Shown: positions 394 to 56,973 of the stretch, piece by piece
How the letters are laid out: every line of letters begins with the position of its first letter
Position numbering within the stretch: the first letter of the stretch is position 1
Assembly: GCA_034401795.1 (NCBI GenBank)
Contig: CM067370.1
Span: 56,751,717 to 56,815,716 of the forward strand
Direction of reading: 5' to 3'
DNA: 64,000 bases
Source of the DNA: Chaetoderma sp. LZ-2023a
Taxonomy: Eukaryota; Mollusca; Caudofoveata; Chaetodermatida; Chaetodermatidae
Position numbers and translations under genes: made by a program
Notes under the pieces: model-generated
Databases searched by the model: none
The model's input: only the letters and a program-made list of their open reading frames with translations
Told to the model about the DNA's origin: nothing

Positions 394-3300
394 GTATAGC
401 AATTGTTTATTTAACCCTTTCCGGACGAAACTGGCCAAGACCGGTCTCTGCACGGGTCTTGAGAAATGCCCATTTGCAGTCCAAGAGAAGGTTAGTTTTG
501 AAAACTTACCACTGGAATGACTGGCTTGATAACCGAGCCAGTTATTCCAGTGGTAAATTTTCTAAAATAGTCTTCTCTTGGCCTTCAAATGGACATTCAA
601 TAAGTAAATATTTAAATTTTTTGAACAAATTTAGGCATTAAAGGGGTATTAATACTTCATACACAAGTCATGCCTACACATGCCATGTGGCGGGCCAACA
701 TGGAAATACAAAATATGACCTCAAAAGATTGTGTCTTAACCCTAGCACTCAACCTGCTCAAAAACAGCTTCTCAGGCTCTTGTGAAATGTCCATTGGCAG
801 ACCAAGAGAAGACTATTTTTTGAAAATTTACCACTCGATTGACTGGCTCGAAGTGGTACCTTTTCAAAAGTAATCTCTTGGTCTGCAAAGATGAGAAAAT
901 TAGATCTTCCGTGAACAAATTTGAGGGTTAAAGGGTTAAAACACATTGACACTTTGATGGTCAGTAGGGTTCTGGCCATGATGCAATGAGGGCGAGACGG
1001 TTTGAGGTTGTACAGCCAGAGGCTTGCGAGTTGCTCAACCATCTCATACAATTATGAAATTTTTATACCTTAAAGTATTATTTGGCCTATATCGCTGATA
1101 TTTTAGAAAGCTTTCTGAAAAACTTTGATTTCGAAAGATTTCTGAACTTAGTTTCATAAAAAAGCTGAAAACAAATGGTGTGTGGAAAAGATAATTTAGG
1201 TTTTAGAGCTGGTCAGAATTATTGAATGATGGCCACTTACATCCAGTGCCGACCAGTATGTGTAAAACCTTGGTCAAACCGAACAGTCAATTTCACTTGC
1301 TGAGATCAAAGAGCGCAAAGCATGGTACATATAACTGGTTTTAAAGGCATTCTTTGAGAACCTAACATGCATGAAGTATTACATCAACGTACATGTTTAC
1401 CTTATTTTAGTTTTGATTTGGCCACACTCCACTACAGAAAATGCATCATAATTTATTAAAAACTTGTTAAATATTGTTGTATGATCATATTGTTCTCTAC
1501 TTTATTTTTGTTTAATATTTAATTTACAGTGGTCAGCAAATCCTTGGTCCTCCTAAAGAAAAGAATATAGTGGATAGTCTGTTCAAATCAGCAAAAGAGT
1601 AAGTCCAATAGGTGAATACATATATTTCTATAATATTAGTTACACCAGTGTTTAACCATGGGTACAGGCTGTTACCACACGTGCAAACATTTTATACTTC
1701 TCGGAGTGTAGCGAGGGAAATATAATTGTTTGCATGTGTGGTAACAGCCTGTACCCACGGCTAAGCACTGGTGTAACAAATTTATTACCCCTCAGACGGT
1801 TGAGTGAGATAGTTCATCATAACGGAACATTTAGATAAGCAATTCTTGAATTAGACATCTCGACAGCGAAGCCAAACGCAGTTAGATCTGTCCATAACTG
1901 ACGCAGTATGGACCATTATAGTGTAGACAGTAAAGACTGAAAGTGCTAATACCATCCAGTTCATGTGATGTTTCAGTGTCAGATTTGTTGGTGTCATTAG
2001 CAGCTTGAGGCCATGGGTTTTCTGAAGCAGGGGTGTCGGCGTTATTTGTAAATATACTGTCACCGCAACTGTCAGCTGATCTAGCCGTTCTACATGGATA
2101 TGCATAATCCATTTCATATCGATATGTTGATTAATGTAATTGACACGCTCATCACACTTAAAGGTGACATATTGTTGGCAGATCAATATTCTCAGGTTGT
2201 GATAAACAACAGTTTGATGGTAATTAATTTGCAGTTTTGATAGCTATGATAAATTCATCGCTCTGTCGAGTATTAAATTTGGTTTAGAAGCGGGTTGCAC
2301 AGCCTTGCTGCAGCAACAGCACCCAGTCAAATTAGCTTCAAAATATGCAACAGCTTTCCTGTATAATTGTTTTGAAATTGAGACACTTGATTGTCAAAAT
2401 GCCGAATCGGGTGCATATCTGCCATTTTAGAGACAGGCATATTATTATAATGAGATTTATGGCTAGCTGCACAGTAAATCTAAAACGCACTTTTCACGCA
2501 GGGGATACCGTGTGGTATTGCCCTCACGTGAGGGAAATAGCAGATCATACATCCCTGATCTTAACCAATCAAAGAACAGCATTTGGTCATGTGACATTGC
2601 TGAGGGGTAGTAATAAGTGGTTTTAGCCCTTTCACTAATGAAATTACATTCACCCAATTTCAGGGCATTCATACAGGCTAGCTCACATCACAATCAAAAT
2701 GACATACATGTAGCTCTGTCATGAAAACTGAATTCAAAGTGTTCAAATTTTATGTTTGTGATGAATTTTACAATCTAATAATCATTCTGAAACTGATTTT
2801 TCTGGGAGCTGTTGCCTTGAGAGCAACAGCCTAGAGCCAATGATTTTCCATTATAGTGGAAACAAAGCGGAATTAACGGAATTCACATTGTGAAGCGGAA
2901 AATGGTTTTAGATGGAAATCAACAGAAATTCACATTTTACTTTTAAAATATCGGCGGCCATATTTGTACTTTTGGTTAAGGGTTTTAAATCAACTTATTT
3001 TTCAATAATGGCTCATCCGAATTCAATGAAATGTTACAGAAGTGATCTATTCTATACATAGATGCAGGTTGCATGACAACAGATTTCATTTTTGGGGAAT
3101 TTTGCGTACTTCTTTCACGGTCTTTGGACATTGAATATTTTCCATGTTTTTAGCTAACCTGGCCTGAAAGGCCAAGTGAGCTTATGCCATGGTGACTGTC
3201 CATCGTCCGTCCATCAACTTTTCCTTTGAATGACTTCTCAAGAATCACTGGGTGATTTCACTTATATTTGGCAGGAAGCATCCTTAGGCCTTAGGGATCC

Positions 3301-6300
3301 AAGTTTGTTCAAACGAGGACGATCGGCCAATTTAACTGATGGCCAACTTGGATTTTGGCCGATTTAAGGAAACGTCTTTAAAGATCTTCTCCGAAACCGC
3401 TTGAGGGATTGATGCAAACCTCAAGAAATATGATCTAGGGCAAGAGCTGAACCAAGTTTGTTCAAGGGAACTTGATTGATTAAATGGTTTGGCGGCCATC
3501 TTGGTTAGGGTTACGGTCTGACCTAGTTTTAGCGAAAATAAGTTCTCCAGAACCGCTGAAGGGATCAGGCCAAAATGTGGCAGATATGATTAGGGACCAA
3601 GGGCCAGTAAAGTTTGTTCAAGAGAAGTTGATCCGTCAAAATACATGGCCGCTGTGAGCCAGTCAAAATATAGCCTGTTTGGTGGCCATATTGGATTTTT
3701 TTATTTGATGGATTTTGAGGCCGATATTGGTTTTATATGTGTTTTTGGGTATTCTGATCTCAAATTTGTAATTTTCGAAACTGTCAGATAAACGGTTTGG
3801 CAGCCGTCTTGGATCATTTTCGTGCCAAAAGCTCCCATACTAAAGGAATGGGAAATTAGAAATGTATTCTTCTCAAGGCTACTGGGCTGATTTCAATTAT
3901 ATTTGGCAGGAAGCATCCTTAGGGCATAGAGATTGGCCAATTTTGCCAGAGGCCATCTTGGATTTCGGTCAATTTTTAGAAATGTCTTTAACCCTTACCA
4001 CTCTGTCAAAAAATTTTAAATATTCAAATGAAATTAAAAGATGAACTGGTGGTCATTTTTCAATAAATTGGGTGGAAGATGTTGCTGTATCGTCCACCAA
4101 AGTTGTAGAAAAACGTTCACCAATTCCTTTGCTACTGACACAGTAAAATATAGAATATTCACATCAGAGTTGTAGGGGTTAAAAATCTCAAAAACCGTTT
4201 AGGGGATCAATTCAAACCTCATGAAATATGATCTAGGGCAAGAGCTGACCCAAGTTTGTTCAAAGGAACTTGATTGACCAAATGGTTCAGCGGCCTTCTT
4301 GGATGACCTCATTTTCGCAAACCGACTTCTTCCCCAGAACCGCGGAAGCGATCAGGCCAAAATTTGTGATATATGATTAGGGACTAAGGGCCATTAAGGT
4401 TTGTTCAAGAGAAGTTGATCTGTCAAAACACCTGGCCGCCGTGGGCCAATCAATATATAGCGTGTTTGGCAGCCATATTTTATTATTTTATTTGATGAAT
4501 TTTGAGACTGAAATTGGTTTTATATATGTTTTTGCTTATTGTGATTTCAAATTTGCCGTTTTCGAGACGGTCCGATAAACAGTTTAGCGGCCATCTTGGA
4601 TCATTTACCAGCCAGAATCTCTGATACTAAAGCAATGGGAAATTTAAATGTATTCTTCTCGTGCCATCTTGGATTTTGGTTGATTTTTAGAAATGTCTGT
4701 AAAAATCTTCTCCAAAACCGCTTGGGGGATCAATTCAAAACACATGAAATATCATCTATGGCAATTGCTGCACCAAGTTTGTTCAAGGAAACTTGATTGG
4801 CCAAATGGTTTGGTGGCCATCTTGGATAGCCTATTTTTTACCAAAACAACTCCAGAACCACAGCGGATTGGGCCAAAATTTGGGAGATATGATTAGGCAT
4901 TGACCGCCATTACAGTTTTTTCAAGGGAAGGAGCTATGTCAGAAATATTGCCGCAGTGGATCAATCAAAATATAGTGTATTTGGCAGCCATATTGGACTT
5001 GCAAAAATGTCTGCACACTCATTTAAAAGACTACTCCTAAACCACCCACCAACAATTTTGACAAAAATGCATAGTGCTCCAGGTGAGCGACACAGGCCCC
5101 TTGGGCCTCTTGGTTCAGTTTGGGACTCTGAATATCTTCCATTTGCCTTGTAACTCAGCAATGGCCAGTCTGATTTCAATGAAACTTTACACAATTGTTC
5201 TAGACCATGCAGGGATGCAATCTCCATAACTAATTTAATTTTTCTGAATTTTACCTACTTTTTCACGGTTTTGGGCTTGAATTATTTTCCATGTTTTAGC
5301 TCATCTGGCCTGAAGGCCCAAGGGAGCTTATGCCATGGTGTCCCGCCATCGTCCGTCCATCAACTTTAGTCCTCATTAACCACTTTGCCGATTTCAAGCA
5401 AATTTGACTGGAAGTACACTATGGTTGTAAGCTCTAGAACATCCATTCAGAATTTATATACTGAAAATTGTCAAATTTCTTCTTCTCGTTACCATTTTGA
5501 GCGATTTCAACCAAACTTCGCTGAAGTGACGTGACACTGTTGTGATGGGCTCCAGAACTTCCATTCTGATTTTTGATTCATCAATTTTTTTGGTGAAAGT
5601 CTTAGATTTTATGAAAAATGTACCGGAATTTGTCAAATTGCTACTTGTCCTTACCATTCTGAACGATTTTAACCAAATGTGGCTGAAAGGTTGCTATGGT
5701 CATAGGCTCGAGATTCTCCATTTGGAATTTTGATTCAATAAACTTTTTGGTGAAAATCTTACATTTTATGAAAAATGTCCCCCAAATTGTCAAATTGATT
5801 CTTTTTACCGTTCTGAGCGATTTCAACAAAATTTGAGATGAACATGTGGTGATGGGTTCTAGAAAATCCATTCAGAATTTTGATTCCTCAATTTTTTTAG
5901 TGAAAATCTTAGATTTTATGAATAATTTGCCGGAAATTGTTAAAATGCTACTCCTCCATAGCTGCTTGACATATTTCAACCAAATTTGGTTAGATGGATT
6001 CTATGGTGGTAGCCTCCAGAACTTCCATTCAGAATTTTGATTGAACTCTTTTATGGGTGAAAAACCTTTATGACAAATTTAGTGGAAATTGTCAAATTGC
6101 TTGTTCTGCTTGTCAACTTAACTGATATCAAGCAAATATGTCCAAAAGGACCCTATGATCATAGGCTTTAGAACTTGCATTCAGAATTTTGATTCATCAA
6201 ATTTTTTGGATAAAAAACTTACATTTTATTACAAATTTACTGGAAATTGTCAAATTGCCTCTCCTTACTACTTTGAGCAATTTCAACCAAACTTGGCTAA

Positions 6301-9300
6301 AATTATCCTATAATCATAGACGCCAGAATTCCATTCAAAATTTTGATTGGTAGATTTTTCCTGTGAAAACTTTTCCATCTTGTTTAATGTAACGAATCAT
6401 GTATATTTAAATGCAAATCCTTCAAATGCTAATGGTCCAGGTGAGCGTCATAGCGCCTTGGGCCTCTTGTTAATATTAGGCCTGCATACTAAATTTTGAG
6501 TTGATGGTAGGCCTATTCAGTATTCCATGTTGTAGCGAAGGCCACAAATTTTGACAGTTGTTGACACATACGGTACTACGTCAATAGGCAGCCTATGTGA
6601 CAAACGAAATCTGGCACACATACATTACAGTGACAAATTTATTTACGCCATTCTTCATGAATACGGTGTAACTATGATGTGTAACTCTTTGGGGTGTAGT
6701 TTATGCAAGGTGTAAGCAATGCCCTCTTCGTGACTATGGGCCCTGCAGTGGCATGTTTTGTCCAGTTTAACCATTAAAGTGTTAACGTTGTATCCTAGTC
6801 CAGAACTAGGCAGTAGTCATTGGTGCTGGATCATTTAACCCTTAAACGCTGCAACCAAGAGTTATATTTTATTCAACTTCCTGAAGTCACCAGCTGGTCT
6901 TGATTTTAAAAACTGTTGCGGACAGATGTTGCTGTCATAGCTAGCAACAGCTGTCAGCAATACAGTATCGTATTCAAATTGAAAACGTGTTATTATATGA
7001 TGGTGTGTTGACATTGAATTAGGGAGTAGGTTAGTTTGGTTGACATTTTGTATTGTATACATGTTAGGTTGGGTTGGGTTGGGTTGATTAACTTGCCTGG
7101 GCTCCTGTTCTATGTATGTCAAGGAAGTTAAAAAGAAATAAGTATTTTGGTTCCACTTATGTTGCGGAGTAAATCACATCTCAGTTAAACAGTTGTATAG
7201 GCATAGCGAAGACGGGCAAGTATAAATCATATGTATAGCATAGATTTTATTAGTGATGTGACTGTGTACATATTATGTTTCTTTATAGTTGACTTTCAAA
7301 GCTTTTTATATAAATACATGTTTAACATCTGGTGGTCAAAAATGGGGAAATGTCCATTTGCAGGTCAATAGATTTCTTTTGGCAATTATCACTGGACTGC
7401 TGAGCTCAATAACCAAGCTAGTCACTCTGGTGGTAGATTGAAAATCTTATGTTGGCCCTTGAATGGATATTTACATGGCTAAAATGTTGATTAACACTAT
7501 TTCCTTATTAGCTCACCTAATGTCTATCTGTCTGTCCATCAACTTTTTCTTTAAATGTCTACTCATTAACCACTTGACCGACTTTAATCAAACTTGGCTG
7601 GGAGGATCCTAGGGTGGGAGGTCTCAGAACTTGTATTACAGAATTTTGATTGGTCAATTTTTTTCGCCAATCATCTTGGAAATACTAAAAAAATTTGCAA
7701 ATCAGTTAAAATCCTACTCATTAACCACTAGTCCGATTTCAGTCAAATTCAATGGGAAGGACCCTAGAATAGTATGTTTCAAAATTCGTATACAGAATTG
7801 TGATGGGACAATTTTTTTGGTGGCCATCTTGAATTTTCTGAAAAATGGCGGGAAATTGTTTAAAACGCTACTCCTAATTAACTGCTTGGGAAATTTCAGC
7901 CAGTATTGGCTGTAAGGATACTATGGTAGGAGGTTTCAGAATTTGTATACAGAACTTTGATTTGGCAATTTTTCTGGTGGCCATCTTGGATTTTCTGAAA
8001 ATTTCTGGAAACCGGTTAAAATCCTACTCATTAACTACTTGGCCGATTTCAATCAAACTCAGTGGGAAGGAACCTAGAGTAGTATTTCAGAATACGTATA
8101 CAGAATTTTGATGGGACAATTTTTTCGGTGGCCATCTTGAATTTTCCAAAAAATAGCGGGAAATGGTTTAAAACTTCATTAACTGCATGGGCAATTTCAG
8201 CCAGACTTGGCTGTAAGGATACTAGGTTTCAGAACTTGTATACAGAATTTTGATTGGGCGATTTTTCTGGTGGCCAACTTGGATTTTCTGAAAATTTCAG
8301 GAAATCAGTTAGAAGCCTACGCTTCATTAACCACTTGGCTGATATCAAGAAAACTCGGCTGGAAGGACACTAAAGTGGTATGCTTCAGAAGTGTATACAG
8401 AATTTTGATTGGTCAATTTTTGTGGTGGCCATTTTGAATTTTCTGGAAAATGTGGGGAAATTGTTTAAAAAGCTACTCTTCATTAATTGCTTGATCAATT
8501 TCAACCAGATTTGGCTGGGAAGAATACTAGGCTCGTAGTTTTCAGAACTTATATACAGAATTTTGATCGGTCAATTTTTCTAGCAGCCATCTTGGATTGT
8601 CTAAAAATTTCTGGAAATCAGTTAAAAGCCTACTCATTAACCACCTGGCCGATATCAAGAAAACTCGGCTGGAAGGACCCTAGAGTGGTATGCTTCAGAA
8701 GATGTATACAGAATTTTGATTGGTAAGTTTTTACAGTGGGCATCTTAAATTTTCTGAGAAATGGCGGCAAATCGTTTAGAACACTACTCTTCATTAACTG
8801 CTTGATCAATTTCAACCAGATTTGGCGGGAAGAATACTAGGCTCGTAGGCTTCAGAACATATATACAGAATTTTCATCGGTCAATTTTCTGGTGGCCATC
8901 TTGGATTTTCTGAAAATTTCTGGAATCAGTTAAAAGCCTCACTAACCACTTGGCCGATTTCAAGCAAACTAGGTTGGAAGGACCCTAGAGTGGTATGCTT
9001 CAGATCATATATACAGAATTTTGATAAGTTAGTTTGTTCGGTGGCCATCTTGAATTTTCCGAAAACTGTAGGGAAATCATTAAAAAACACTACGCCTCAT
9101 TAACTGCTTGGACAATTTCGACCGGACTTGGCTGGAAGGATACTAGGCTCGTAGATTTCAGAACTTGTATACCGACTTAATTTGGCAAATTTTTTAGCTG
9201 GCCATCCTGGACTTCTTTTAAATTTGTGGAAATCAGTTACAAGACTACTCATTAACCGCTGCAACGATTTCAAGCAAACTCAGCTGGAAGAACCCTAGAG

Positions 9301-12300
9301 TGGTGTGCTTCAGAATTTGTTTACAGATTTTTGATTGGTCAGTTTGTTCGGCGGCCAACTTGTATTTTTTTTTAATTTGCGAAAATAGTTTAAAATGCTA
9401 CTCCTCATTAACCGCTTAGGCAATTTCAATCAGATTTGAGTGGAAGGATCCTATAGTGGTAGCCTCTAGTAAATCTATTCAGAACTTTGATACGTAAATG
9501 TTTTGGCAGCCATCTTTGTTTTTCTGGAAAATCTCCGGAACCATTTAAAAACAGTACTGCTTAATCAATGGCCCGGCCCACCTTCAACAGAACTTGGGTG
9601 GAATGATCCTATGATGATAGGCTTCAACATATCAAATGAAAATTATTTGGTGGCCAACTTAGATTTTCCGAAAATTATGCATCATGTCTATTCAAATGCT
9701 AATGGTCCAGGTGAGCGTCACAAACCCTTGGGCCTCTTGTTGTGTTCAGTTTTTAGTATGCTTTGTAACTCATCAATGGCCATTCCGATTTCAATGAAAC
9801 TTTACGAAGCTGTTCTATGTTATGTATGGATACAATCTGTATCATTACTAATTTGATTTTGGGGAATTTTGCCTACTTTTCAGTTTCCAACCATGACTAG
9901 TTTCTATCAAAATGGCAATCCACATTATCCATGACTTGTACAGGCGGGGAATGTCACACTCCAGCGTTCTTGTTTATTTCTTAATTGTTTCTATATACAA
10001 ATACTGCAAATGGAAGTCCATGGAATGTACATCCTAGGAGTTGATGTATTCACTATAGACACATAACACAAGACAATAGTAACACTAATATTTACCTTGT
10101 TTAAAGTCCAACAAGACATTTATCTGATCATGACATAAACAAACTCTGGCCAATAAGATTTTGCTTAACGGAATAACTAGATAAAAAGAATCAGAATAAA
10201 TGGCCAGAAAGCAGAGATACCTCCTTTGAAAATACCCCGTTTTCTCAGCCTTCAATTTTAGTCCTCTCAGACTACTTATTTGTTTATAGACTATGTTAAT
10301 ATCCATCAATGTGTCTAATCGCTATTGCATAAAATGAAGAATTATGTTCATTAAATACATGTAAATTTATTTTCTCCTTGACTCTGGAAAATGGTCCATG
10401 AGATTGACTATTATGCTTTGTGATTAGACATGGTGCAGAACCGCCTGAAGAATCTTCCGGTCCATCAGAGTCACATGGTATGCATCGAGGTTCACGTTTT
10501 ACTGGAGCTGGCTATAGACTAGGAGACACTGAGGATGATTCAGAAATGATACAGGGAGCTCTGGTTCCACAGCAGCCAAAACAGGTACAAGCACCTTTCG
10601 TACTTTAGTGCTAAAGAGAAGCAGAAGCTTTGCTTAGTGTATGAAATAGACCAAGAGAAGGCAATTTCTCATAATATTTTCTATGATATATGTATATATA
10701 TATATATCAGGGCTCCTGAGATGGCCGTATTGTGTGGACATGTCCGGGAAACATTCTCAATGTCCGGTAGCGTATAACACCAGCCGGACATCTTGACAGC
10801 TTTTTGCGATCGCGCAGAGCAAAAAATCAATATTTACAGTCGGAAATATCATTGAAATCATGATACTTCCTTGTATAAACCGACTCTTATGGACAAACAT
10901 TTTTTATCAAACAGGTAACCATTAAGCGGACCAGATAGAATGCATAATACTCGATCACCATCGCGTTATGATCATATATAGAGTAATTTCCCGAGTCCAG
11001 TATATTAGGTTCGTAAATCATAAGCGACTACCGAGTACTCGCTCTAAATATTGATACTTCTTAATTTGTTAAGTTTAGGTCACCACTCTAGTAGCTACTC
11101 GAGTATGTACTCGAGGCTACCGCTCTATTTATATAGTTTGCGAAAGTACCTAAATTATAACTTGTTTAAATTTTCATCTACCGGTATATGGAATAAGTGC
11201 GAAACACGTGATAAATGTCCTTAACTTGCATATCCTATAATCTCCAGCACCAAAGCGCTTATTTATGAGGTTTTTTATTCATACGGCTACAAACATAAAA
11301 ACCCAACCATGTCATGAATATATGAGTTTTGGCGCTATTCGAGTAATGAGCTAAACTCATCATTAGCTAATTGTATTTTCACGATGCCATTTTGTCAAAT
11401 TGTGGATTAAATTTGATGTAATAAATGGGAATAAATGCCGTTTATTACAGCGTAGACAATATTTAGACAGTCCCATTTAATAATTTCACTACCGCAATGA
11501 TGGATATGAGGTATACATTAGTCGTAAGAGCGCAAGAACCGCTACCATGACTAGGGTGAAAATGTGTTCTATTTTCGTGTTATTGTCTATTACCACTTAC
11601 CGACTTAGACATTTTAGGGAATCGCTTTTTCTTGTGAAATATAGAAATATACGTAATACAAGTAGTGAATATTCGAATTTAAACAATTTACAGCCTTATC
11701 GTATTAGAATCCGGGATTGCAAATATGGAATTTTTGGTAATTAATTTCACTTACCTTAACACACACACACGCACACACACACACACCACCCCACCCCCAG
11801 GTCGTCACCCCACCCCATGTCCGGCTGGTAAAAATCTGTTTTTGGGAGCGATATATATATAATTTATAATAATTATATATAATATATAATAATATATATA
11901 TTGGTTAAGCAAAGTCATGATCTGAGCAGTTTTGACTATATAGGTACAAAATGTAGTTAATTACAGTAGTTTTTGTCTGGCCTGCGAAGCAGAAAGCGAG
12001 ACATATGGGCCACTTTTTCGACTGCGACGACAACCGCGGTGTCAACAATGTTAAGTTTTGGAGCCATATATATATAATTTATAATAATTATATATAATAT
12101 ATAATAATATATATATTGGTTAAGCAAAGTCATGATCTGAGCAGTTTTGACTACCGTTAAATTCCGTGTATATTGCGCTATCATGCATAGTGCGCACCCC
12201 TAAATTTAACCAAAATCGGCCTGAAAAAATGTTGTTTTCATGTATAGTGCGCAGTAAGATTGAGAGACGTGTGAACGAAAACTGGTAACAAAAAAATCAA

Positions 12301-15300
12301 TGACTTACTGCGTGTCGTGTCGAATACGCTTTCCTTATAAAATCTCGTTTGTGGCGTGCGTCGCTCTGTTGTTTAATCATCGGAATATTATTCGCCTACA
12401 CTTTTAGCAAATATTTTGTATTAAACTTTATTGAATGATATAAAAATACAAATATAATTTCTATCAGAACAGGTTAGAATCCGAATTTGATTTGAGCAGA
12501 GCTCATTAACATAAATGGTCGTTAGAACATAAAAAATCGGATATTTATTTTGTTTCAATTCATAAAATATGAGTTTTGTGCCTGATACTTGAGAATAAAA
12601 TCGATTTTAATAATAAAAAAAACAACCTCAAATCCATTTTGGCTCACTAACAGTGCCAGTAATTACTTTGATAACTATATCAAAGGCGAGCCCATGAGAT
12701 CTTGTTCAATCATATACGCAGTCGATGAGTGGTTTCGGTTCACAGGCAGTGTAGTCAGGTGGTGGGGCGGGGTGGGTGGATTAACGCGGTCAGAAGTATG
12801 ATAAACAAAGGTGATAGAGCTGACCGCCTGCCGTTTACAAAATCGACAGTGATCAATCGTGGGTATGGTTTGAGTGGGGGTGGGGTTTATATAATATATT
12901 ATAGTATATCATCATCATAATAATAATATATTATAATATCGTGCTATAATCTAGTTTATTCCACTCATTGTTTATTAAATAAATTGAATTATCTTCAATT
13001 TGAAATGATTTTCTATTCTCATCCTTTCATTTCCAGATTTATTTCGTCATACATTGACGGCTGTGACCTTTAACCTTAACCTGTCAATCATAATCATCCT
13101 GCCCGCCGATTGGTCAAAACATTGTGCCGTTTAGTACATAGGAAACATTCCTTTCTATATCTATGTAAATGCTAGATCACCTTGAAAAACATCGGCTCTA
13201 TCATTTTTTTTTTAACACATTTATGTCCGTATCTGTGTAGCAATCTATGGATTTTAAACATCTCTATGTTCAACTTGGGAAGACAGGAGTAACCTCCCTT
13301 TATAGAAATAAATTAGAACAAATTACAGGAAATAATGGCGTTGTAAAAAAGTTAAATGATGGTTTATTTGATCATTTTACAACACTATGGTATTTAATAA
13401 AGGTATAACACAATATTTAGACAGTAGTAAGACATTTTAACGATCTAGTTTAGATAGTACCATTATAGACATGTTAGAATGCGATCGTTATTCCCGACTG
13501 ATTCCCAATCCATAAAATCATATTTTCAGCCCTGAATTTAGCTTGGACGATGACCGCGGTGTCAACAATGTTAAGTTTTTACGTTTATCATAACTTCTCA
13601 GCTTATATTTCAGGATCATTTAATCCTATAGCAACAAAACATGGCTATGTGGTTACCTATACTGTTAGGAAGCAGTAGGATGATACTGAGGTCACAAGGT
13701 CAAAGGTCACTGTGACCTGATAAAAAAACCACTGTTTTTTAATGTTAAGTTTTTGCGTTTACTAAAACTTGGCTTATCCTTTAAGGATTGGTTAATCCTA
13801 TTGGAGGTGAACTTGGATACATTGTTACCTATAATGTTAGGAAGCAGCATGCTGACATTAAAGTCACAATGTCGACGGTCAAGGTCATTCTGACCGCTAC
13901 AAAACTATTTTTCAATGTTAAATTTTTAGGCGTAGCAAATCTTATCATGTTATATTTCTGGATTGCTTAACCCTAATGGAACACAACTTGGGTACATGGT
14001 TGCTTATGCCAAGTGGATAGAGCATGATGACATGGAGGTCAAAGCCATTCTAATATCGCTATTTGGCCTCTGCTTTTTTTTTTCATTCATCAAATCATTT
14101 ATATTTCAGGATTAATTAATCCTATTGGAACTAAGCATGAATACATGATTACCTATAATGTTAGGAGGCAGCATGATAACACAGAGGTCACAAGGTCAAA
14201 GGGCAATGCCACTGGTACAAACAGGAGACAGGCGAGACATTTAAGGCAGAATTCTTGTTAGATTGTGACAAAAAAATGCATTTTTGATGACCAAACTGAT
14301 GAACAAAGTGATTCTTAAAATATTTATTTATTTCGACTCATTTCTATGACAATGCTCTTTCACTTGTACAGACTAGTTACAAAACATCCTTTGTAATGTA
14401 ATAACTATTCTGTTGAATTTTTAGCCCACATTGCCTGAAGGGCCAAGTGAATTTATGCTGTGGCGACTGTCCATCGTCCGTCCGTTGGCCATCAGCTTTT
14501 GCTTTTAAACACTACTCATTAACCACTGGCCGATTTCAACCAAATTTGGCTGGAAGGACCCTATGGTCATAAGCTCCAGAACTTCCATACAGAATTTTGA
14601 GTTGTCAATTTTTTGGGGTGAAAATCAGATTTTCTGAAAAATTTACCGGAAGTTGTCAAAATGCTACTCGTCCATAACGGCTTGACATATTTCAAACAAA
14701 TTTGGTTGGATGGATTTTATGGTGGTAGGCTCCAAAACGTCCATTCAGAATTTTGATTCATCAATTTTTTGGGTGAAAATCTTAGATTTTATGAAAAATA
14801 TACCGGAAATTATCAAATTGCTTCTCCATACCATTCTGAGCTATTTCAACTAAATTGGAGTGAAAGGATCCTGTGATGATAGGCGCTAGACAGAATTTTG
14901 ATTCGTCAAATTTTTGGATGAAAATCTTAGATTTTATGAAAAATGTACTAGAAATGGTCAAAATGCTACTCCTCCTTAGCTGTTTGACGTATTTCAACCA
15001 AATTTGACTAGATGAATTCTATGGTGGTAGGCTTTACAACTTCCATTCAGAATTTTGATTGATTAATTTTTTGGGTGAAAATCTTAGATTTTATGATAAA
15101 TTTACCGGAAATGGTCAAAATGCTACTCCTCCTTAGCTGTTTGACATATTTGGAACTAGAAATGTAAAAAAAATAATAGACCGCTTGGCTGATTGATGGA
15201 AAACTCAAAGAGCATCATATAGAGCAATTATAGCTTAACCAAGTCATTTGAAGACAGTCTGATTAGCTGATGTGTCTGCGCAAAATTTGCTTAATATGAC

Positions 15301-18300
15301 TAGAGACGAAGAGACATTCAACCTTGTTCAAGAGAACCTAAGGCATGAAAGAATATGTCCACGATCGACCAATCAAAATTGGGCTTTTGTTATTTGATGG
15401 TTTCTGACAGTGCAAATAGTGATATATAGGACTTATTGGCTCTCTAATTTGTATATTTGAAAAAACCTTTAACGATCCTGCAGTTGTGTTGAGGAATGTC
15501 CATTTGCACCCCAATCATGCCAATAGAAGACTATTTTTGAAAATTTACCACTGGAATAACTGGCTACGTAACTGAGCCTGTCATTCCAGTGGTAAATTTC
15601 CAAAAATAATCTTGGCCTGCAAATGGACAGGTATTTTTATTTTCTTGACCAAATTTATCAATTAAAGAATTAAGCAGCCTTTCTATTAAAATAGGTTGGC
15701 CAATAGATGTGAAACACAACAACGACAGCGAAAATTATCATACATAGGTTTGTGGGGCCTGCTAAATAGGAATTTGATACTTCTCAATCTTATTTTTGGA
15801 TTAGGTCAGTGGCCATCTTGAATTTTTTTTGTATTTTAGATATTGGACATAGTTACTTAGATTTCCATGTTCCATAGATAAATGGTTATATTTGTGGCCC
15901 AAATCTACATATGTTTAACTTTTTTATCCCCCCCCCCCCCCCGGGTCTGGAAAAGGGGGGAATAAAGCGATCAGCATGTCCGTCCGTCCATCTGTCTGTT
16001 CCCGTCTTGTCAACGCAACTCCGCCTAGAGGTCTCAATGGATTAACTTAAAATTTTGTCCACAATATCAGTATCATGTGTGGATGTGCATGTGCTTTTTT
16101 TCGCATCCGAAATATTGTTCATTACAGAGTTATCCCCCTTTATATATCTTAAAGCCGATACATAAACTGCATTGCCAATCATTTCTTGTCAACGTAGCTC
16201 CTGCTAGAGGTCTTAATGGATTAACTTAAAATTTTGTCGACATCAGTATCATGTGCAGATGTGCATTTGCTTTTTTCGCGACCAAAAAAAATTTCATTAC
16301 AGAGTTATCACCCTTTAAATATCTTAAAGCCGATACATAAACTGCATTGCCAATCATTTCTTGTCAACGCAACTCCTACAGTTTAGGGTTGATTCTTTTG
16401 AAAATTGGTATGTGTTATCATTACCACATGTATGTGTGCATGTGCTATCCGTGTACATGTATGGCCATCCGTCTGTCCAAAATGTATGTATGTTCATCTG
16501 TCAGTCCATCCATCTCTGACAATCATTTCTTGTCAACGCAACTCCTCCTAGAGGCGCAACTCCTCCTACAGTTTAGCTCCGATTCTTTTGAAAATTGGTA
16601 CGTGTTATCATTACCACGTGTAGGTGTGCATGTGCTATCCGTGTACCTGTACATCCATCCGTCTGTCCAAAATGTATGTATGTCCGTTTGTCAGTCCATC
16701 CATCTCTGACAATCATTTCTTGTCAACGCAACTCCTCCTAGAGGTCTCAATGGATTAACTTAAAATTTTGTCCACAATATCAGTATCATGTGCGGATGTG
16801 CATGTGCTTTTTTGCGGCCGAAATATTGTTCATTACAGCGTTATCCCCATTTATATATCTTAAAACCGATACATAAACTGCATTGCCAATCATTTCTTGT
16901 CAACGCAACTCCTAAAGGTCTCAATGGATTAACTTAAAGTTTTGTTGACATTATCAGTATCATGTGCAGATGTGCATGTGCTTTTTTCGTGACCAAAAAA
17001 TTGTTCATTACAGAGTTATCCCCCTTTAAATATCTTAAAGCTGATACATAAACTGCATTGCCAATCATTTCTTGTCAACGCAACTCCTCCTACAGTTTAG
17101 CTCCGATTCTTTTGAAAATTGGTATGTGTTATCATTATCACATGTAGGTGTGCATGTGCTATCCGTGTACCTGTATGGCCATCCATCTGTCCAAAATGTA
17201 TGTATGTTCATCTGTCAGTCCATCCATCTCTGACAATCATTTCTTGTCAACGTAACTCCTAGAGGTCTCAATGGATTAACTTAAAATTGTGTCCACTTTA
17301 TCAGTATCATGTGCAGATGTGCATGTGCTTTGTTCGCGGCCAAAAAATTGTTCATTACAGAGTTATCCCCCTTTAAATATCTTAAAGCTGATACAAAAAC
17401 TGCATGGCCAATCATTTCTTGTCAATGCATTTCCTCCTAGAGGTCTCAATGGATTAACTTTAAATTGTGTCCACATTATCAGTATCATGTGCATGTGCTT
17501 TTTTCGCGACCGAAAAACCTTTCCGTACAGAGTTATCCCCCTTTAAATATCTTAAAGCCGATACATAAACTGCATTGCTAGTCATTGTCAATGCAACTCC
17601 ATCTAGAGGTCTCAATGGATTAACTTAAAATTTCGTCGACATCAGGATCATGTGCAGATGTGCATGTGCTTTTTTCGCGACCGAAAAATTTTTCCTTACA
17701 GAGATTTCCCCCTTTATATATCTTAAAGCTGATACATAAACTGCATTGCCAATCATTTGTCAACGCAACTCCTCCTACAGTTTAGCTGCGATTCTTTTGA
17801 AACTTGGTACGTGTTATCATTACCACTTGAAGATGTGCTTGTGCTACCCGTATGCCTGTGCATCCATGCGTCTGTATAGAATGTATGTGTGTCAGTCTGT
17901 TGGTCCATCCCTCTCTGGCAATCATTTCAAGATGTTAGCACAACTTCAGTTTAGCTACGATGTATGTTTATCTGAAATGTTTGGATCCAGGGGGGATATG
18001 CCGTCTTCTGATGGCTCTTGTTTTGTTTATTGGTTGCTGTCAGTAGTGCAATAGTAAGTTGTTGTTTATCTGAATGATGATGGTCAGTGTGATAAAGTTA
18101 AAGTGACAATGTTCTTACTTTATATACAGGTTGATGTTGTCTTAAAGCTGTTTAAAGAAGGATTTAGTGTTGATGATGGGGAGTTGAGAGACTATCAAGA
18201 GCCGGCCAATAAAGACTTCCTCAACTCGGTCTTCAAAGGGTAAATGCTTGACACGTTGTAATGCTTAATGATTAGTCATATGTGCTTTCAAATGTTCCCT

Positions 18301-21300
18301 GGTTGTACTGGACGATCATTAGAAAGTTAGTATTTTATGATGCAGAACAAAATACATAGAGAATCCAGATGTGTGTTATAATAGAAATTAGGAATCAAAT
18401 ACATATACCGATGCATCCTTTCCTTTTGAAAGGTGAAACATAGGTGCCTAAAAGTGCTTCAAAAAGGCATTTTCTGTCTAATTTGAACAAACATGTTTCA
18501 TAAAAGTTTTCCACAGCAAGATATATTTATGACATTGCATCACATGTAGATGTAACTGCTTATGATGCAGGCCACCATACTGAAAACAAGTAGACCTACT
18601 CGGATCAGTATGCCATTATTCAGCATAGCAGCAGCTTTTAGCACCAGAACTCAGAGATTTCTTAGTCTAATGTGGTCGTCTTATCGGCTTATGATAGCTT
18701 TAATTAATCATATTTTCTCTCCACTACTCATCTTCAAACATGGTTCGCAAAATGGGAAAGCACTAGGAAAACAGGTTGTCTGAGAGGGAGAGTGCTTTCC
18801 ACTCTGCAAAGTGCTCTCCATTTTGAACAAACTAGGATAGTTTCTTGTGCATACGTATTACATGGTATGACATCAATGGAAAGAATTATGTAATTACTCA
18901 TGTCGCCAAAGGCTGGCGTGTGTTTCAGTTGGTACCGTGTGTCTGTCTGTCTGTCGCTCTGTCTGTCTGTCTGTCTGTGTGTCTGGCTGTCTGTGTCTGG
19001 CTGCGCGATATCTCCAGAGTCCAAGAAGTTAGAATCACCAAATTTGGCATATTGATTGGTGTTTTAGATGACTAGGATAAAATGAGGTTGAGGTCAAACT
19101 GTCAAATTTCTAGGTCAAGGGGACATTAAGTGCATCCCGAAATACACATTTTCAGCCATAAATCAGGAACGCAGGTATGTAGTGTGACCAAATTTTGCAC
19201 ATCCGTTCATAGTATCTAGGTGGCTATACGTTATATGAGTTTCAGGACAAAGCATGAAATATCTATGTCACTGGGTCACAAAGTGCATACTGGAACACAC
19301 CTTTTTGGCCATAGCTCTAGGGTGCATGTAAGCAGAATTAGCACATGCACTATCTAGGTAACTGGGTCACTAAGTGAATTGCTGTGACAGAGCGCAAAGT
19401 CGTAAGTCAGTATCTCCTTCAAATGCATTCTAGTTAAGTTTAATATTTTTTACTGATAGGGAAGTATCACAATCATCACATTCATAAACTTGTTACCATA
19501 TTACTTTATTGAAATTATCCCAGTATTTTAATTCTAAATAATGCAGGTACATTATTGGTTATTTTGAAACTGGAAGATCCTGTTTCGAAATACTCAATAG
19601 ATTAGAGATACATGTATCTGATTTTAGGGTTAGAGTTGAAAGATTTGATTCAATAGAATTATAGACTTTACGAAGTAAAACAAGCTGTTGTGATATTGTC
19701 AGCATCGTTTAGCAGTGATGGCAGGCTCATCCATTTTGCATTTAACTCGACTTTTCAGTTCATATCTCATGTTTAGTCAATCATACTGGACCTAAACTTG
19801 CTTCCTTCTAATGAGGTCAAAAGGTCAAAGTGTGGAGTCACTGTGCCATTGGTAAAAGCCTTACTGTGTTCAATAGTAACATTTTGCATTTAGCTCAACC
19901 TACCAGTTCATATCTTGTGTTTGGTTAAGCCTACTGGAACCAAACTTGGGCACATACTTCCTTATAATGAGAGGGCATGACGCACTGACATTTGAACCAA
20001 AATCTTAAAAGTCAAGTCGTTGTGACATTGGTAAAAGCTTGGGGGTTTTCAACATTAACATTTTTGTTTTGTGTTTATCTCTTGCAAATTATCTACTGTC
20101 CCCAAACTTGGACACATGCTTCTTTATAATGAGAGGGAATGACACATGGCAGATTGTAGTCAAAAGGTTATTGTTCCTTGCTAAAACATTTTTTTCAACA
20201 TTGACATTTTGCATTTAGCTCTACTTAGCAGTTTATAGCTCATGTTTGTTTAAGCATGCAGGGTCCAAATTTGGACGCATGCTTCGTTATGATAAGATTG
20301 CATGACACAGTCACATTGACATCAAAAAGTCACGGTCAGTGTGATAATGACAAAGTGTAAGAGATTTTCTCAACATTAACATTTTGTCTGTCAATGTAGT
20401 GGTTCATATGTTATGTTGTGTTAATCACATTGCACCCAAAATTAGATACATGCTAATGAAAGTTGATGACGCAATTACTTTGGGGTCAAAGGTTCAAAGG
20501 TCATGGTGACTGATACGTGTATTGATAAGCGATATATGTTTTCTGTTTGAAGTCACACTTCATAGTTCATTGCATAGTCGAGCTTCAATTGCAATCATAT
20601 TTATGCTTTATTATGGACCCCATATAGATATATGTCTGTCCATTAGTTTGTCCATCCAGGATTTCATTGGCTCATCCACTTCACATTGATATGGGTAACT
20701 CGCATACCAAATTTGGTTGAATTCCATCCAATGGTTTCGGAGAGAGATTCGTCACAATCAATTTCCGCAGGTTAAAATTTTATCTTGAGTGAATGTCATA
20801 AGTGGAGTACATACTTGCATATACAAATACGCATAACCACAATATGCTGTGTCAATTTCATTTGACACTGCACTGCTAGATAATATTGATGCTACATTAA
20901 TCCATTGTGTGATGGTGGTGGGAGAGGGGGGCATATATTTCAGCAATCTCTGATTGTCATTCTGGTTTATTTTAATATTTTTAGAGAAATTCCAAAAGAA
21001 CTGCTTCGTAATTCAAAGGGCATGGACATAAAATTAGACATGGAAAATCATAGGAATGAGGACTATGTGAAGCCCAAGCAATCATTGAAAGCCTTCTCTG
21101 GTGCCGGACATATGCTTGGAAGGTATCATTACTTACACAGCTCCACAATCACTCTTCTGTCATTCACATTTTTTTTATTATAGTACAATTGTTGTCATTT
21201 TGTTATCGTTAATTTGTTGTTGAACCGTATCATGCTTACACAAACTTGAAGATGGCTAAACATTTCTGTTAGTGACAGGGTCTAGACAAATAGATATTTT

Positions 21301-22616
21301 TCAGCAGTGCCATCTCTTTCCAATTGTCATTAAATTCACCTATGTCTTCACCATACCATTACACCAGTACTCAATGAAATGTATAAACGCATCCTGCACC
21401 ATTAAGCATCTTTACGGGTCAAAGTAATAGTTAGTTGGCCTTTTGCAAATAACGGTCAAGTAGAATTATGTTAATCATGCGATCTTCAGCACGGTAACCC
21501 CATTTTCAGTTTAAAGACAAAGTTGACAGACAGACAGACAGACAGACAGGCAACGTAAGCTCAACGAACTAATGAATGTCTGTACTATAGGGATGACGAG
21601 GAGCTGGTTGTATAAGGGTGAGATACTTCTGATATTATAGTGTCAGAACGTGCAAAGTCAAAGAATGAGCAGGATAACCATTCTACAGTACAGATCATAG
21701 TTAGCTTTAATGTTTGACGAAGCAAAAACGAGAAAAAAATGCATCTTTTTAGCGTCAAAAGCTTGTAGTGTTTACAGGTGTGGCAAACTACCAAACGCAT
21801 TTAATTTATTTTATAGGCGTCTAACGGAAAGTCAAAACCATCCTACAATATGCTAAACACATTATGGAATATTTTAAACCCATCACGAAAAAAGTCAAAT
21901 GCGCAATCAAATGTATTCAGTAACGCGACAAAGATTCTTACTACGCGTCATTAAACATAAAGTGGAATCGGTCTAAGGTCTGTCGAGGACCCATACATGT
22001 AGATCTAAATTGCAATTGGAGCCATATATGTGTTAAGTACATGCATCATATTTAATTATTTTTTTCGTGGCCGTAAATGATAATTGCCGAAATGCCATAT
22101 CATCGTAATCGTAAATCGTACTTTTGTATAAAATGAATGTGTGGAAACTCCACACCAGGGTATTCTTTACTGTGTATGAAGCCAGTGTGATCAATCCACA
22201 ATTTCTCTTGAAATCTGGATGAATATACCAAAATATTCTCTGAAATGGGATTATTACAATATAGTCTAATTTGAGCCGACGTAAAAGGCATAACTTTTTA
22301 GAACAATATATGCATCAGTTGCGGCTAGTGTTGTAGCATCTTATAACGGAAAGGGAAGCGATTTACAAAGTCCGCAAACAGGCCATTTGGTTGTTTTCGA
22401 ATTCACTATTTCATACATAGTGTGTAACCGAAAATCTCCGCTTTTACATAAAAAGTGTGATGCCTATATATTTGACCACTTCAGCATCCTAACTCGGCCC
22501 TTTTACTGACAGTGCTTGAAGTTAGTTTTCTCGAAAATTGTAAACAAAGACACTCATTGATGATTGAGTTTATCGGATTGTTTACATTATTATTTTCCGT
22601 GACAGGTAAACGAAAT

Positions 22617-22672
<56 letters not shown>

Positions 22673-24333
22673 CTGTGCAAAAGCACCAGCAAAAACAATA
22701 GAACGTAGAAACATGATGGTACAACTAGGCTGCCATACTTTTTGTCTCCGCGTTAGCTGACATAATTCCAAGTACGAAATGCACATGCATGCATGACTTC
22801 ACGCCGCTTGATGTCCGTGCGTGGCGGGAAACAGCACACGTGTTCAGTTATGTAAAAGTCCAGTTTGAGGTGTGGAACATTACATACAGATTTAGGCGAC
22901 AAGATTAGGAATTTTGTGTTCATGACCGTGGTTTATTTGTACAGAGAGAATTAGCTCTTGATTGTGAACCGCTATGGCAAGACGAAGGTTAAGTGATCGT
23001 GTGAAATGGCAAATCATAGGCATGCATACCACTGGTATGTCATGCAGAGAGATTGGCAGACAGCTGAACATTAACCATACTGTAATCAGTCGTTTGATTG
23101 CAAAACATGGGCAAACTAACGAGGTGAAGGACAGGCCTAGATCTGGAAGACCGAAGAAGACTACTGCCCGTGATGATCGAGCCCTAGTACGCCTTGTTAG
23201 GAGATCTCCATTCACCAACAGCAGAGTGCTCAGCCAGCAATGGGAAACGCGCAATAGAGTGTCAATGTCTACCGTCAAAAGGAGACTGTATGCTGCTGGC
23301 ATGAAAGCTAGGAGACCTGTCAGACGTCCTCTCCTCACTGCACACCACAAAGAGGAGCGTCTGAGGTGGTGCAACGAAAGAAGACACTGGAACATGAGAT
23401 CCTGGAGACGGGTACACTGGTCCGATGAAAGTCGGTTCCTGCTTCATGCCACAGATGGTCGAACTCGTGTATGGAGGTCCAGACGCACGGCGTACGACCA
23501 ACGTAACATCATGGAAGAAGTTCCATTTGGTGGAGGTTCCGTTATGATATGGGGGTGCATCTCATTTGATTGTAAGCTGGATCTGTTGACTGTACCTGGA
23601 ACACTAAATGGACAAAGATATCAAGATTCCATACTGGATAGAGTTGTGGTCCCTCATTTTGTAAATCATGCACCTGGAACCCACCCTATATTCATGGATG
23701 ACAACGCCCGACCACATCGTGCTAGAGCTGTGCATGAATACCTCCGCCAGAATGCCATCGAAACCCTACCATGGCCAGCAAGGAGCCCTGACATGAACCC
23801 TATTGAGCATATCTGGGACATTCTGGGAAACATGGTGAGAAGGAGGGATCCTCCTGTGCAGAACCTACAGGAATTAACAGACGCACTCCATCTTGAATGG
23901 CAACGAATACCACAATGGCGTATCAGTCGGTTGGTGACCAGCATGAGACGTCGTGTCCAGGCCGTCATCCAGGCACAAGGTGGATATACCCGGTATTAAT
24001 AATGACAGTCTCAAACTCGTGCACAGATGTTAAACTTCGTTTTCAGACACCATTAATGACAATCTAGCCACGTGTGTCAACTGTAGGGCAATAGTTGTCA
24101 GTTGTGTCAACGTAACCATATTCAGGCCTCGTTTTCAAGTTCAAACAACAACATACAGTGTTTCCCCACCATCATAATCAGCATTACTCTAGTTGCATTA
24201 TTACCTCTTGCACTAAGATGGATGGGTACATAAATGTTTATGCTATTGCTTTCTTCATAGCACATGAATATACCCTCGCATGTGCGTAAAAATAGGGTGG
24301 TGCTTAACTTTTGCACAGGTGTATATATATATA

Positions 24334-24409
<76 letters not shown>

Positions 24410-27400
24410 TGCGCCTCTCTTACGACAATCTATAACTTTCTCCTTAGCAGTTACATCACATTTACTAAAACAAGAATGATAATGCAGGTTACTGGGCCAA
24501 TATTGGCTAGGTAGCCTGCATTATCAGGGAAGTGGGCCCCAATTCAAAACCAATGAATTATCATATTTTACCCATTGTACCTGAAATCCCAAAATTCCAC
24601 TTTTATAGTCATTATATAAGTATGATGTTGAATATTTTGAAAGCAATTTGACTGGAAGCTTTCAGTTAAATTAGTTTAAAAATATTCAACAGAATTTTGA
24701 CACATTCGTAACAGATTTATTATTTTCTCTTGTTGGTTGAAAGGGTTAATTCAATAGTAGAAGTACTCCATTTGATTTCTACGCTAAGGTCTGAGGGCGG
24801 TGTATGACCATAACACCCGCTGTCGGGTCATAGGGCCTAACAGTACTTGTATATAGTATATTATTGACTATATTGTGCCGTACATTTTTAACCAAATATC
24901 ACTCATGGTGATGTTATAAACATGGAATCAGACACTGATCGTAATGGTGAGACAGCTAATGTGTTGGACAGTGAATCTTGTGATGATGACATGTTTGACG
25001 ATGAGGAAGCCACCACTACTGGAAACACTTGAAGATGAACTTGAAGCTACTACAGTACAGAGTGAGTGCACTGCTCCAGTCAGTGACAAAGTGCCTTTAA
25101 GTTTGGTATATTTTGGTGCATTCACCATGATCATTTGTACCGTTTGCATTTAATTAACTGTTAAAGTTTATTCTATTGAATAATTAGCTCTAACTATCAT
25201 GATTAGATATAACAATAACACACCCAGAGTTAGTAGATAGTCGCTATTATAAGAATTGAACATTTTAGCAATTAACCCTTTAACACTCCAGCTGGTTAAA
25301 ACATGTTCTGTAGTGGCCTTGAGAAATGTCCATATGCAGAACAAGAGAATTATTTTTTGGAAAAATTACCACCGGAATGAGTATCTCCATAACTGAACCA
25401 CTGGTAAATTTTCACAAATTTATTTCCCTTGCTCTGCATATGGATATTTTCGATAGGAAAATTTAAATTTTCTTAAACCAGTTTTAGGATTAAAGACCCA
25501 AGGCATATGAAAACGTTACTGTGACTCAGTGAGTGGTCAAAACCGGCATCTGAAATTAAATTGGCTTGAGAAATGACCATTTGCAGGCCAAGGGAAGACT
25601 ATTTTTGTCTCGCCTGCGAAGCAGGATCGAGACATAGGTATCACTTTTCCGGCGGCGGTGTAAACTTTTAAGCTAAGTTTATATCTCAGCAATGCCTGAT
25701 CCAATTGGAACCAAACTTGGGTGCATGGTAATATACATCAAAAGGAAGCAGCCCGCCAATAAAAAGACCATGAGCTCATGGTTACAGGGGTCAAAGGTTA
25801 CAGTATAATCTTTCTTAATATTTTACGTTAAGTTTTTGCATTAAACAAAAGTTATTGCCTTATATCTCAGCATTGCCTGATCCAGTTGGTGATATACATT
25901 GAATGGAAGCAGCCCACCGATAAAGTGGTCATGATGTCAAGGTTATGGGATCAAAGGCTATTTCAACATTAAGTTTTTGCGTTTAGCAAAACTTCTCAGC
26001 TTATATTTCAGGTCAAAGGTCAAGGTAACTGTGACAAACAGGAGACAGGCGAGACATATAATTCCGCGGAATTCTTGTTTTTACATTTTACCACTGGAAT
26101 AACTGGCTTGATAACCAAGCGAGTCATTACAGTTCTAAATGTTAAAAAATTATCTTGACTTTCAAATCGCCATTTATTAACCCTTTAATGGTCAAATCAG
26201 CCATAACCAGCCTCTGCAGTGTTCCTGAGAAATGCCCTTTTGCTGACTAAGAGAATACTATTTTTGAAAATTTATCGCTGGAATGACTGGCTCCCAGAAT
26301 ACTCTTGATCAGCAAATTGATATTTTATGAGACGATTGGAATTTTCTTGACCAAATTTAACCATTAAAGGGTTCAGCAGAAATTAACATTTTCTTGACAA
26401 AGATTGACCAGTAAAGGGTTGTAAAGCTGAAGCTAATACTTACCTTTAACTACCTTGTTCCATTGTTCACAGTCGGGACAAATTCTCAATCCTTGTTCCA
26501 CTGAAGATCAAAGAAATGATGAAAACACCATACAACCTTTACCTACATACAGTAAATAAGTCAAACCCAGTCATTTTGGATTTGATTAAATTGTTTATTC
26601 ATTCACTTAAAAGTTTTATATCATTGTTATTGAATGCTGCCATATCGATATAATGCAGAGTTTGCTCAAACAATCACCAACACAGACAGTGGCGCAAACC
26701 ACCACTGTTTACAAGCATGAGCAATATCATATAGGACCAATATAGTTTACTGTTGATTTTGAGACTTGTATTGTTATCGATGATCAATAACAATACAAGT
26801 CCAGTCTCTAGAATAACCGTAAACTATCTTGGTCCTATATAATATTGCTCATGCTGGTCATCAGTGGTGGTTTATGGTTATGTTACTGTCTGTGTTGTGT
26901 TGATGAATGATGTTGTGCAGTGCTGGTTTTTACTGTAGTTTCTTCTGCTGGTCACAGGTCATATATTACTGATAGTGGTCTTTCAAATTTTTGTCCTACT
27001 GTTCCAGATTTTGTACGTTTATTTTTGATACTTGTGTTTGTGGTTTGGCTATGTTTCAACAGTAGCTGAAATAGAAAGTGAAACAAATATGATTACACAG
27101 GGAGTTATAAGTATTACATAATGGACCTTTCCATTTTATCCATCAACCACATGATGCATAAGGATGACAACATAATGAATGACATAGATAGGTTCGTCAA
27201 TCGTCAGACACTTAATTGATCACGAACTATATGCATACTATTTAACCCTTTAATGGTCAAATTTGTTCAAGAAAATTTTAATATCCACTTATTGAATGTC
27301 CAATTAGAGGCCAAGAGAATACAATTTTTGAAAATTTATGACAGGAATTACTGGCTCGGTCATTGAGCCAGTCATTCGTGGTGAATTTTCAAAAATTCTA

Positions 27401-46079: not shown

Positions 46080-46519
46080 GTATGTAAACCATTTTCCTGC
46101 CTCCAATATGAGTACAAAGGTGTTATCCTCAATCTAACCTCCATCCTTGTAAACTAGATACATGAACTTATGATGTCAGTAATATATTCTTGAATATTTA
46201 AGATTAATTTGATCAGAAGTCAAATATCTTACTGTACTATTATTTTCAGAGGATTCATTATCCTGTATGACTGCCTTAAGACTGAGCAATTCAGATGCCA
46301 AAATTGAAATAGTTAAGCAGTGCTTATAGTATATTAAGTAGCTGGTGATGAGAGTTAGTAGATACTGTGTGTAAAGAAGACACTTTTGACACCCCCTCCC
46401 CCCCCCCCCAAAGTGCTTCCTTAAGTGTGTGGGTCTTTGACCCTTTAATGGTGATACCGGCCAAAACGTGCCTGTAGTTGTTGGCAGTTTTCGTTTGTAG
46501 GTCAAGCGAATGTCTTTAG
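46080..46519 (+). other. Intron after exon F, mostly unassigned
   Basis: Begins with the GTATGT donor. A C-rich run (CCCCCTCCCCCCCCCCC) lies near 46393-46409 and an F1 MITE fragment (GACCCTTTAATGGTGATACC) at 46438-46510. No UBX exon found. Confidence 0.5.
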
Positions 46520-47080: not shown

Positions 47081-47098
47081 AGGGTTTTTAGCTCACCT

Positions 47099-48820: not shown

Positions 48821-48825
48821 TGTTA

Positions 48826-56940: not shown

Positions 56941-56973
56941 TAATTCAGGTGCTACTTCAGTATCATATATATA

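Follow-up and report, generated by a model that had tools for sequence, protein, structure and literature searches.

We describe here the families of interspersed repeats in a 64,000-nucleotide stretch of the genome of the caudofoveate mollusc Chaetoderma sp. LZ-2023a (GenBank assembly GCA_034401795.1, contig CM067370.1, positions 56,751,717 to 56,815,716 of the forward strand; called the window below, with positions counted from its first base). Families a, b and c, and probably d, e and f, are very likely Helentron-associated interspersed elements (HINEs), that is, gene-less DNA transposons that depend for their movement on a Helentron Rep/helicase(-endonuclease) encoded at another place in the genome and acting in trans. 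Membership of the Helentron-associated class, proposed for these families by a first-pass annotation of the window, is supported for a and b, which combine sharp ends, insertion into T-runs without target duplication, subterminal inverted repeats (subTIRs), a 3′ hairpin (in a), repeated cores and no Rep/helicase domain. For c it rests on one copy.

The window contains nine 5′ ends and six 3′ ends of family a, two copies of b and one of c. Further family a copies, at 39103-62000, lie outside the range covered by the first-pass annotation. Its families d and e are taken, by our own identification, to be included in those that we name e and f and in a family with a GTCT tract at about 18894. The elements are as follows.

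3152..5112, + strand: a1, family a; TTTTT before the 5′ end, CTCTTG at the 3′ end, diverged core
5298..6469, + strand: a2, with family a ends and a core of 157-bp tandem repeats
7510..9739, + strand: a3, family a; 5′ tip palindrome lost, 5′ end placed by eye
11975..14257, + strand: b1, family b; another insertion follows about 12056 and the core resumes at about 13555 (by eye)
14423..15160, + strand: a14, a family a 5′ end with a 157-bp core and no 3′ end; right limit approximate
15922..18020, + strand: c, single copy, with the tip TTATCCCC, a GTCC tract, a 175/190-bp core, the hairpin GCCGTCTTCTGATGGC and CTCTTG
19664..20560, + strand: e, copy 1, with a core homologous to that of b under a different 5′ tip; right limit approximate
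25607..26077, + strand: b2, a short family b copy in the T-run of a palindromic miniature inverted-repeat transposable element (MITE), with an empty site
39103..41012, + strand: a4, family a, with a nested palindromic repeat inside (39477-39563); its host is a similar repeat
42714..43200, + strand: f, with a c-like tip and a different core; right limit approximate
46519..47089, + strand: e, copy 2, with the e tip; later split by a5, resuming at about 51175-51345
47090..51174, + strand: a5, family a, in an e-type core; 3′ end altered
about 48820-50585: later insertion in a5, placed by eye
51353..53470, + strand: a6, family a 5′ part without a 3′ end, with a nested insertion at about 52412-53288; limits approximate, by eye
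58929..60072, + strand: a58, family a; 5′ palindrome lost, 5′ end placed by eye, 3′ end intact
60436..62000, + strand: a7, family a 5′ part without a 3′ end; right limit approximate

Element ends and insertion sites

Ends were located by a scan for edit distance to query sequences, with five dinucleotide shuffles as the control; b2 and c were queries themselves. The scan placed 5′ ends of family a at 3150, 5296, 14421, 39101, 47088, 51351 and 60434 and its 3′ ends at 5112, 6469, 9739, 41012, 51167 and 60072, family b at 11971-14257 and 25603-26077, and family c at 15937-18020. The other a copies lay at distances of 1 to 8 (5′ end) and 1 to 4 (3′ end), against best values of at least 14 and at least 11 in the shuffles, and b1 lay at 5 and 6, against at least 11. 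Two more family a 5′ ends, which lack the palindrome (7510 and 58929), were spotted by eye and then aligned. Five minus-strand matches to a (distance 11-13) are the same palindromes read in reverse, and a weak minus-strand match to b (26453-26482, distance 10) was taken as chance. Both ends of c, which is a single copy, stand where the first-pass annotation placed them by eye.

The ends of a and b are sharp. Among seven of the nine a 5′ ends (a3 and a58, without the palindrome, excluded), pairwise identity is 0.20-0.31 upstream, 0.89 in the T-run and 0.73-1.00 in the first 25 bases. Among five of the six 3′ ends (the altered a5 end excluded), it is 1.00 in the last 10 bases and 0.38 in the five that follow CTCTTG. 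Both b copies diverge beyond their ends. Tandem cores and heavy nesting would also be expected of static satellite arrays whose edges happen to bear palindromes, but such arrays are an extremely improbable source of the same ends on unrelated flanks and of the empty sites given below; for a and b this explanation is already contradicted.

The word TCTTG, with a frequency of 0.002 per position in the window, closes eight of the nine 3′ ends. It counts as independent evidence in a, which has six copies, and in b, where one of the two copies has an empty site; in c it does not, the first-pass annotation having set that end at CTTG.

Eight of the nine complete elements have at least four T in the five bases of the left flank (nominal p 5e-10, a value inflated because the a query started with TT and the b query with TTTT). 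The right flank starts with T in seven of the nine (p 0.007), and that T was in no query. The number of flanking Ts varies among elements.

Empty sites were found for three elements. When the flanks of b2 are joined, they give 18 spanning alignments to a MITE, which fall at 12 distinct loci and one further place with a short, weak match; at most of these loci the insertion point lies at a T-run. For a5, the joined sequence spans the junction in alignments with two e-type cores (z 19.4 and 14.0), while another e-type target aligns to the right flank only, and the joined flanks of a4 align to one similar palindromic repeat, in both orientations and at 74% identity. At these three in-window empty sites, insertion occurred in or near T-runs without target duplication. 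The palindromic MITE family itself occupies 12 loci besides the b2 host, among them 458-597, 15489-15629, 27295-27454, 29474-29575, 34306-34431 and 41293-41437.

The target duplications typical of DDE transposons were also looked for. No direct repeat beyond poly-T occurs at eight of the nine junctions; the exception is the altered a5 end, where a 5-bp match is a reflection of the duplicated a5 3′ end. Palindromes and inverted repeats at the ends would suit MITE-like elements of a DDE transposase, and Pearl-type elements have also been placed in that class (PMC5139131). The junctions speak against such an origin, as does the subterminal position of the 3′ inverted repeat. Poly-T on both sides of b2 could mask a short TTTTT duplication, but poly-T length is not constant among elements, and we regard a DDE origin as highly improbable. 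Canonical Helitrons (5′ TC, 3′ CTRR, insertion between A and T) share with these elements a hairpin near the 3′ end and the lack of target duplication. They are nevertheless a very unlikely identity for elements that end in CTTG rather than CTRR, target sites in or near T-runs and, in a and b, carry an inverted copy of the tip; ends and target already contradict it.

Terminal structures, cores and sharing between families

The first-pass annotation had given a, b and c a common architecture of 5′ palindrome, GTCC-rich or TGGCGAC tract, core of 150-190-bp tandem units, inverted copy of the 5′ motif near the 3′ end, and hairpin followed by CTTG. This layout proved mostly right for a and partly right for b and c. 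Of 400 random window sites, 0-6 were as stable as the 5′ palindrome of a1, a4, a5, b2 or c, 15 as that of b1, 33 as that of a2, 50 as that of a58 and all 400 as the tip of a3, where the palindrome is lost. Compared with shuffles of themselves, only the palindromes of a1, a4, a5 and b2 were exceptional (z -2.4 to -4.6). The palindromes attributed to d and e were recognised only by visual inspection. For e, neither an inverted 3′ copy of the tip nor a 3′ end was found, and for f no convincing 3′ end.

An inverted copy of the tip lies 19-24 bp from the 3′ end in five of six a and two of two b elements (seven of eight together). All 10 bp match in a5 and b2 (equalled by 208 of 19,884 random pairs); the copy has one mismatch in a1 and b1 (2,348 of 19,884) and in a4 (851), and comes to 8 bp in a3 (1,527) and to a longer imperfect match in a58 (118); the best inverted match of a2 is a different stretch, not a tip copy. 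Taken singly these matches are weak, being equalled by 1-12% of random pairs, and their weight comes from the recurrence of the same position. As families, a and b thus have the subTIRs, with a palindromic 5′ copy, of HINEs. The 3′ hairpin was matched in stability by 0 of 400 random sites for a1, 6 for a4, 4 for a5, 2 for a58 and 18 for c, but is not significant in a2 (69), a3 (133), b1 (400) or b2 (127). By eye, the b 3′ palindrome is perfect in b2 and eroded in b1.

A GTCC-rich tract is present in most a copies and in c, but neither copy of b contains a GTCY-like word or TGGCGAC. Tandem cores have units of 157 bp in a2 and a3 and of 175 and 190 bp in c, with 13.5 copies in a3 by Tandem Repeats Finder (TRF), which reported no such array in a1, b1 or b2. 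Autocorrelation gave weak peaks at 326 for b1 (z 3.3) and at 383 for a4 (z 2.4) and none at 150-190. The a1-type core and the a3 monomer are homologous (z 10.7 with a1, 11.5 with a4).

The claim that the families are of unrelated sequence is not supported. In addition to TCTTG, a and b have tips in which 7 of 11 positions are alike when set in register (p 0.012), the b and e cores are homologous under different tips (z 6.5-14.1 in four comparisons), and the c and f tips are alike (z 6.0) over cores that differ (z 0.3 for the 175-bp c unit against f at 42 kb, -0.2 for the 190-bp unit). Cores were further compared between families, pairs sharing a first letter in their names being skipped. The a2 core and the 190-bp c unit reached z 3.6 (equalled in 0 of 100 shuffles), five pairs lay at z 3.0-3.2 (a2/e46, a2/f34, a1/e19, f42/g43 and f42/e19), and the remaining pairs, including a/b and b/c, at no more than 2.6.

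A 21-bp motif, seen for example at 14530 and 42805, is common to the family a cores and to most of the other core types examined, though not to c. It has eight matches within 6,316 bp of non-a cores (11 regions), where shuffles predict about 1.2, and four in 19,874 bp of non-repeat window. The regions were picked after the motif had been seen, with 34870-35350 (three matches) set aside as an a-type core, and that the motif is common to other cores is only suggestive.

Two accounts of recognition bear on these sequence relations. The first-pass annotation attributed the mobility of several HINE families to a single machinery guided by structure and not by sequence, in the form of a Helentron enzyme recognising only the folded ends. 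The tips of a, c and e do differ at most positions under a like layout, but a and b have TCTTG and similar tips in common, as c and f have tips, and structure alone retrieves few elements. A strict structure-only scan found no pairs on either strand; its 5′ palindromes after T4 numbered 11 on the plus and 3 on the minus strand, against 1, 3, 4, 4, 4 and 7 in six shuffles. A looser scan gave five pairs on the plus and four on the minus strand, against 0, 0, 1 and 2 in four shuffles, and only a4 and a58 among them were true elements (two of nine). In PMC4067079, Helentrons and their partners are grouped by identical subTIR sequence, which points to sequence recognition. Reading of structure alone is not supported, and we consider such an enzyme quite unlikely. 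Also improbable is an exchange in which tips, cores and 3′ ends are separate modules, one Helentron enzyme accepts a T-run and any self-complementary tip with a hairpin-TCTTG terminator, and new families arise by swaps (of tips between b and e, of cores between c and f).

Coding capacity, proposed transposition model and genomic setting

Domain searches covered 135 of the 203 stop-free open reading frames (ORFs) of at least 62 codons in the window, the remainder being 64 in a or c cores or Tc1 copies and four rich in AT. These 135 ORFs yielded no Rep, helicase, OTU or endonuclease family, apart from a chance-level match to Rol_Rep_N (E 0.045); a scan of this kind could miss a decayed, frameshifted gene. 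A search for the terminal pattern in viral contigs and prokaryote genome contigs gave no matches, as expected, and is uninformative on animals. Rfam (gathering thresholds) and ARAGORN gave no match in the window, and the matches listed by a literature text search with short terminal sequences look unrelated, judged by title and start of abstract.

In the established Helentron model, a Rep/helicase supplied in trans nicks and unwinds one strand, stops at a 3′ signal and joins the strand to a target. For the elements described here, Rep would nick one strand at the junction of T and tip, and the helicase would displace that strand in the 5′ to 3′ direction across the repeated core. The end would be marked by the 3′ subTIR, hairpin and TCTTG, and there the strand would be cut; the single-stranded copy would then be joined into a T-run elsewhere. 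We infer the enzyme, the strand polarity and rolling-circle copying by analogy with that model.

Several results weigh against the identification of a, b and c as HINEs. No autonomous Helentron was seen among the scanned ORFs of the window. The right flanks of a1 and a5 begin with G. Within the window no empty site could be identified from the joined flanks of a1, a2, a3, c or a58, those of b1 matched only the b1 3′ end itself, and BLAST with a5 at first, slightly different coordinates found no empty site. Erosion has affected several of the hairpins, and at the 3′ end even the better ones are only modestly more stable than shuffled versions of themselves (z -1.0 to -2.3). In c the 5′ palindrome does not exceed its own shuffles (z 0.5), and the inverted repeat is not significant, the supposed copy of the tip being only the C-run TCCCCCC (equalled by 4,392 random pairs, 22%). 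Finally, the 3′ subTIR lies 19-24 bp from the end here, against 38-60 bp from the terminus for the 3′ inverted repeat of the mite HINEs described in PMC4067079.

The repeats lie in introns of an NSFL1C (p47) gene or beside it. ORFs on the plus strand match the Pfam SEP and UBX domains, and the SEP exon matches NSFL1 cofactor p47 in PDB. The exons are as follows.

293-517: NSFL1C (p47)-like exon, by eye only
20890-21180: NSFL1C (p47)-like exon, SEP domain (Pfam), p47 matches (PDB)
45859-46134: NSFL1C (p47)-like exon, partial UBX domain (Pfam)

All 12 known 5′ ends of a, b and c (ten by scan, two by eye) are on the plus strand, which is the sense strand of the p47 gene. T-runs of at least five outside elements number 121 on the plus and 61 on the minus strand (66% plus), so that this bias explains only part of the uniform orientation. 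The copies are perhaps not independent of one another, and minus-strand ends that have decayed may have escaped detection.

Other repeats were also noted. Two Tc1-like transposons, 98.6% identical and in opposite orientation, lie at 22640-24330 (plus) and 56965-58659 (minus), each with a 343-amino-acid ORF; the Pfam scan covered the first copy only. The segments 3007-3150 (before a1), 5160-5297 (separating a1 from a2) and 9759-9880 (following a3) are one repeat at 74-80% identity, which suggests local tandem duplication or insertion into a host repeat. An inverted repeat of 310 bp at 37462-37771 matches its reverse complement at 82% identity. A direct repeat of about 95 bp (about 11846-11940 and 12061-12155, by eye and from TRF rows) flanks the 5′ end of b1, and b1 contains a later insertion of about 1.5 kb (by eye).

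Comparison with known Helentron derivatives

HINE/DINE-1 elements and Helentrons are described in PMC4067079 as having palindromic subTIRs, a 3′ palindrome, central repeats, insertion within TT and a variable number of terminal Ts, and the window elements resemble them in each of these features. The word CTTG is absent from the text of that paper, figures and supplements aside; we make no claim that such an end is unreported.

A close parallel in layout is offered by the 11 Cg_HINE elements of Crassostrea gigas (PMC7492417). Their left module consists of a subTIR, an inverted repeat and a GTCY/GTCC microsatellite, their monomers average 140-180 bp, and their right module consists of a subTIR and a palindrome. 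These elements insert in T-rich sites without target duplication, some families in the one genome are unrelated in all modules, and their autonomous partner was left unresolved in the oyster. Compared by description rather than by sequence, the window elements have the same modules, the GTCC tract included. In Cg_HINE, however, each array type is tied to one flank pair, whereas b and e share a core under different tips. Since the same modules are given in PMC4067079 and PMC7492417, the layout in the window belongs to an already described class.

Other oyster elements are similar, again by description only. The Pearl elements CvA, CvE and CvG carry short arrays of ~160-bp repeats between conserved ends (PMC7492417, PMC5139131, PMC11136912) and, like the window elements, differ in sequence while sharing structure. 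Satellite arrays carried by oyster Helitrons (PMC8268682) likewise have conserved left and right boxes, a microsatellite and a short tandem array, with several end groups in one genome. In Crassostrea gigas the same array types occur across different Helitron elements (PMC12628747), a reuse that resembles the sharing of cores between b and e.

The in-window empty sites support a Helentron derivative as the identity of a repeat type that is hard to annotate, and the well-bounded ends of a and b can be used to seek the autonomous partner. Relative to the known systems, what is slightly new here is the empty sites within the window, the TCTTG end common to a and b, and the sharing of modules between b and e and between c and f.

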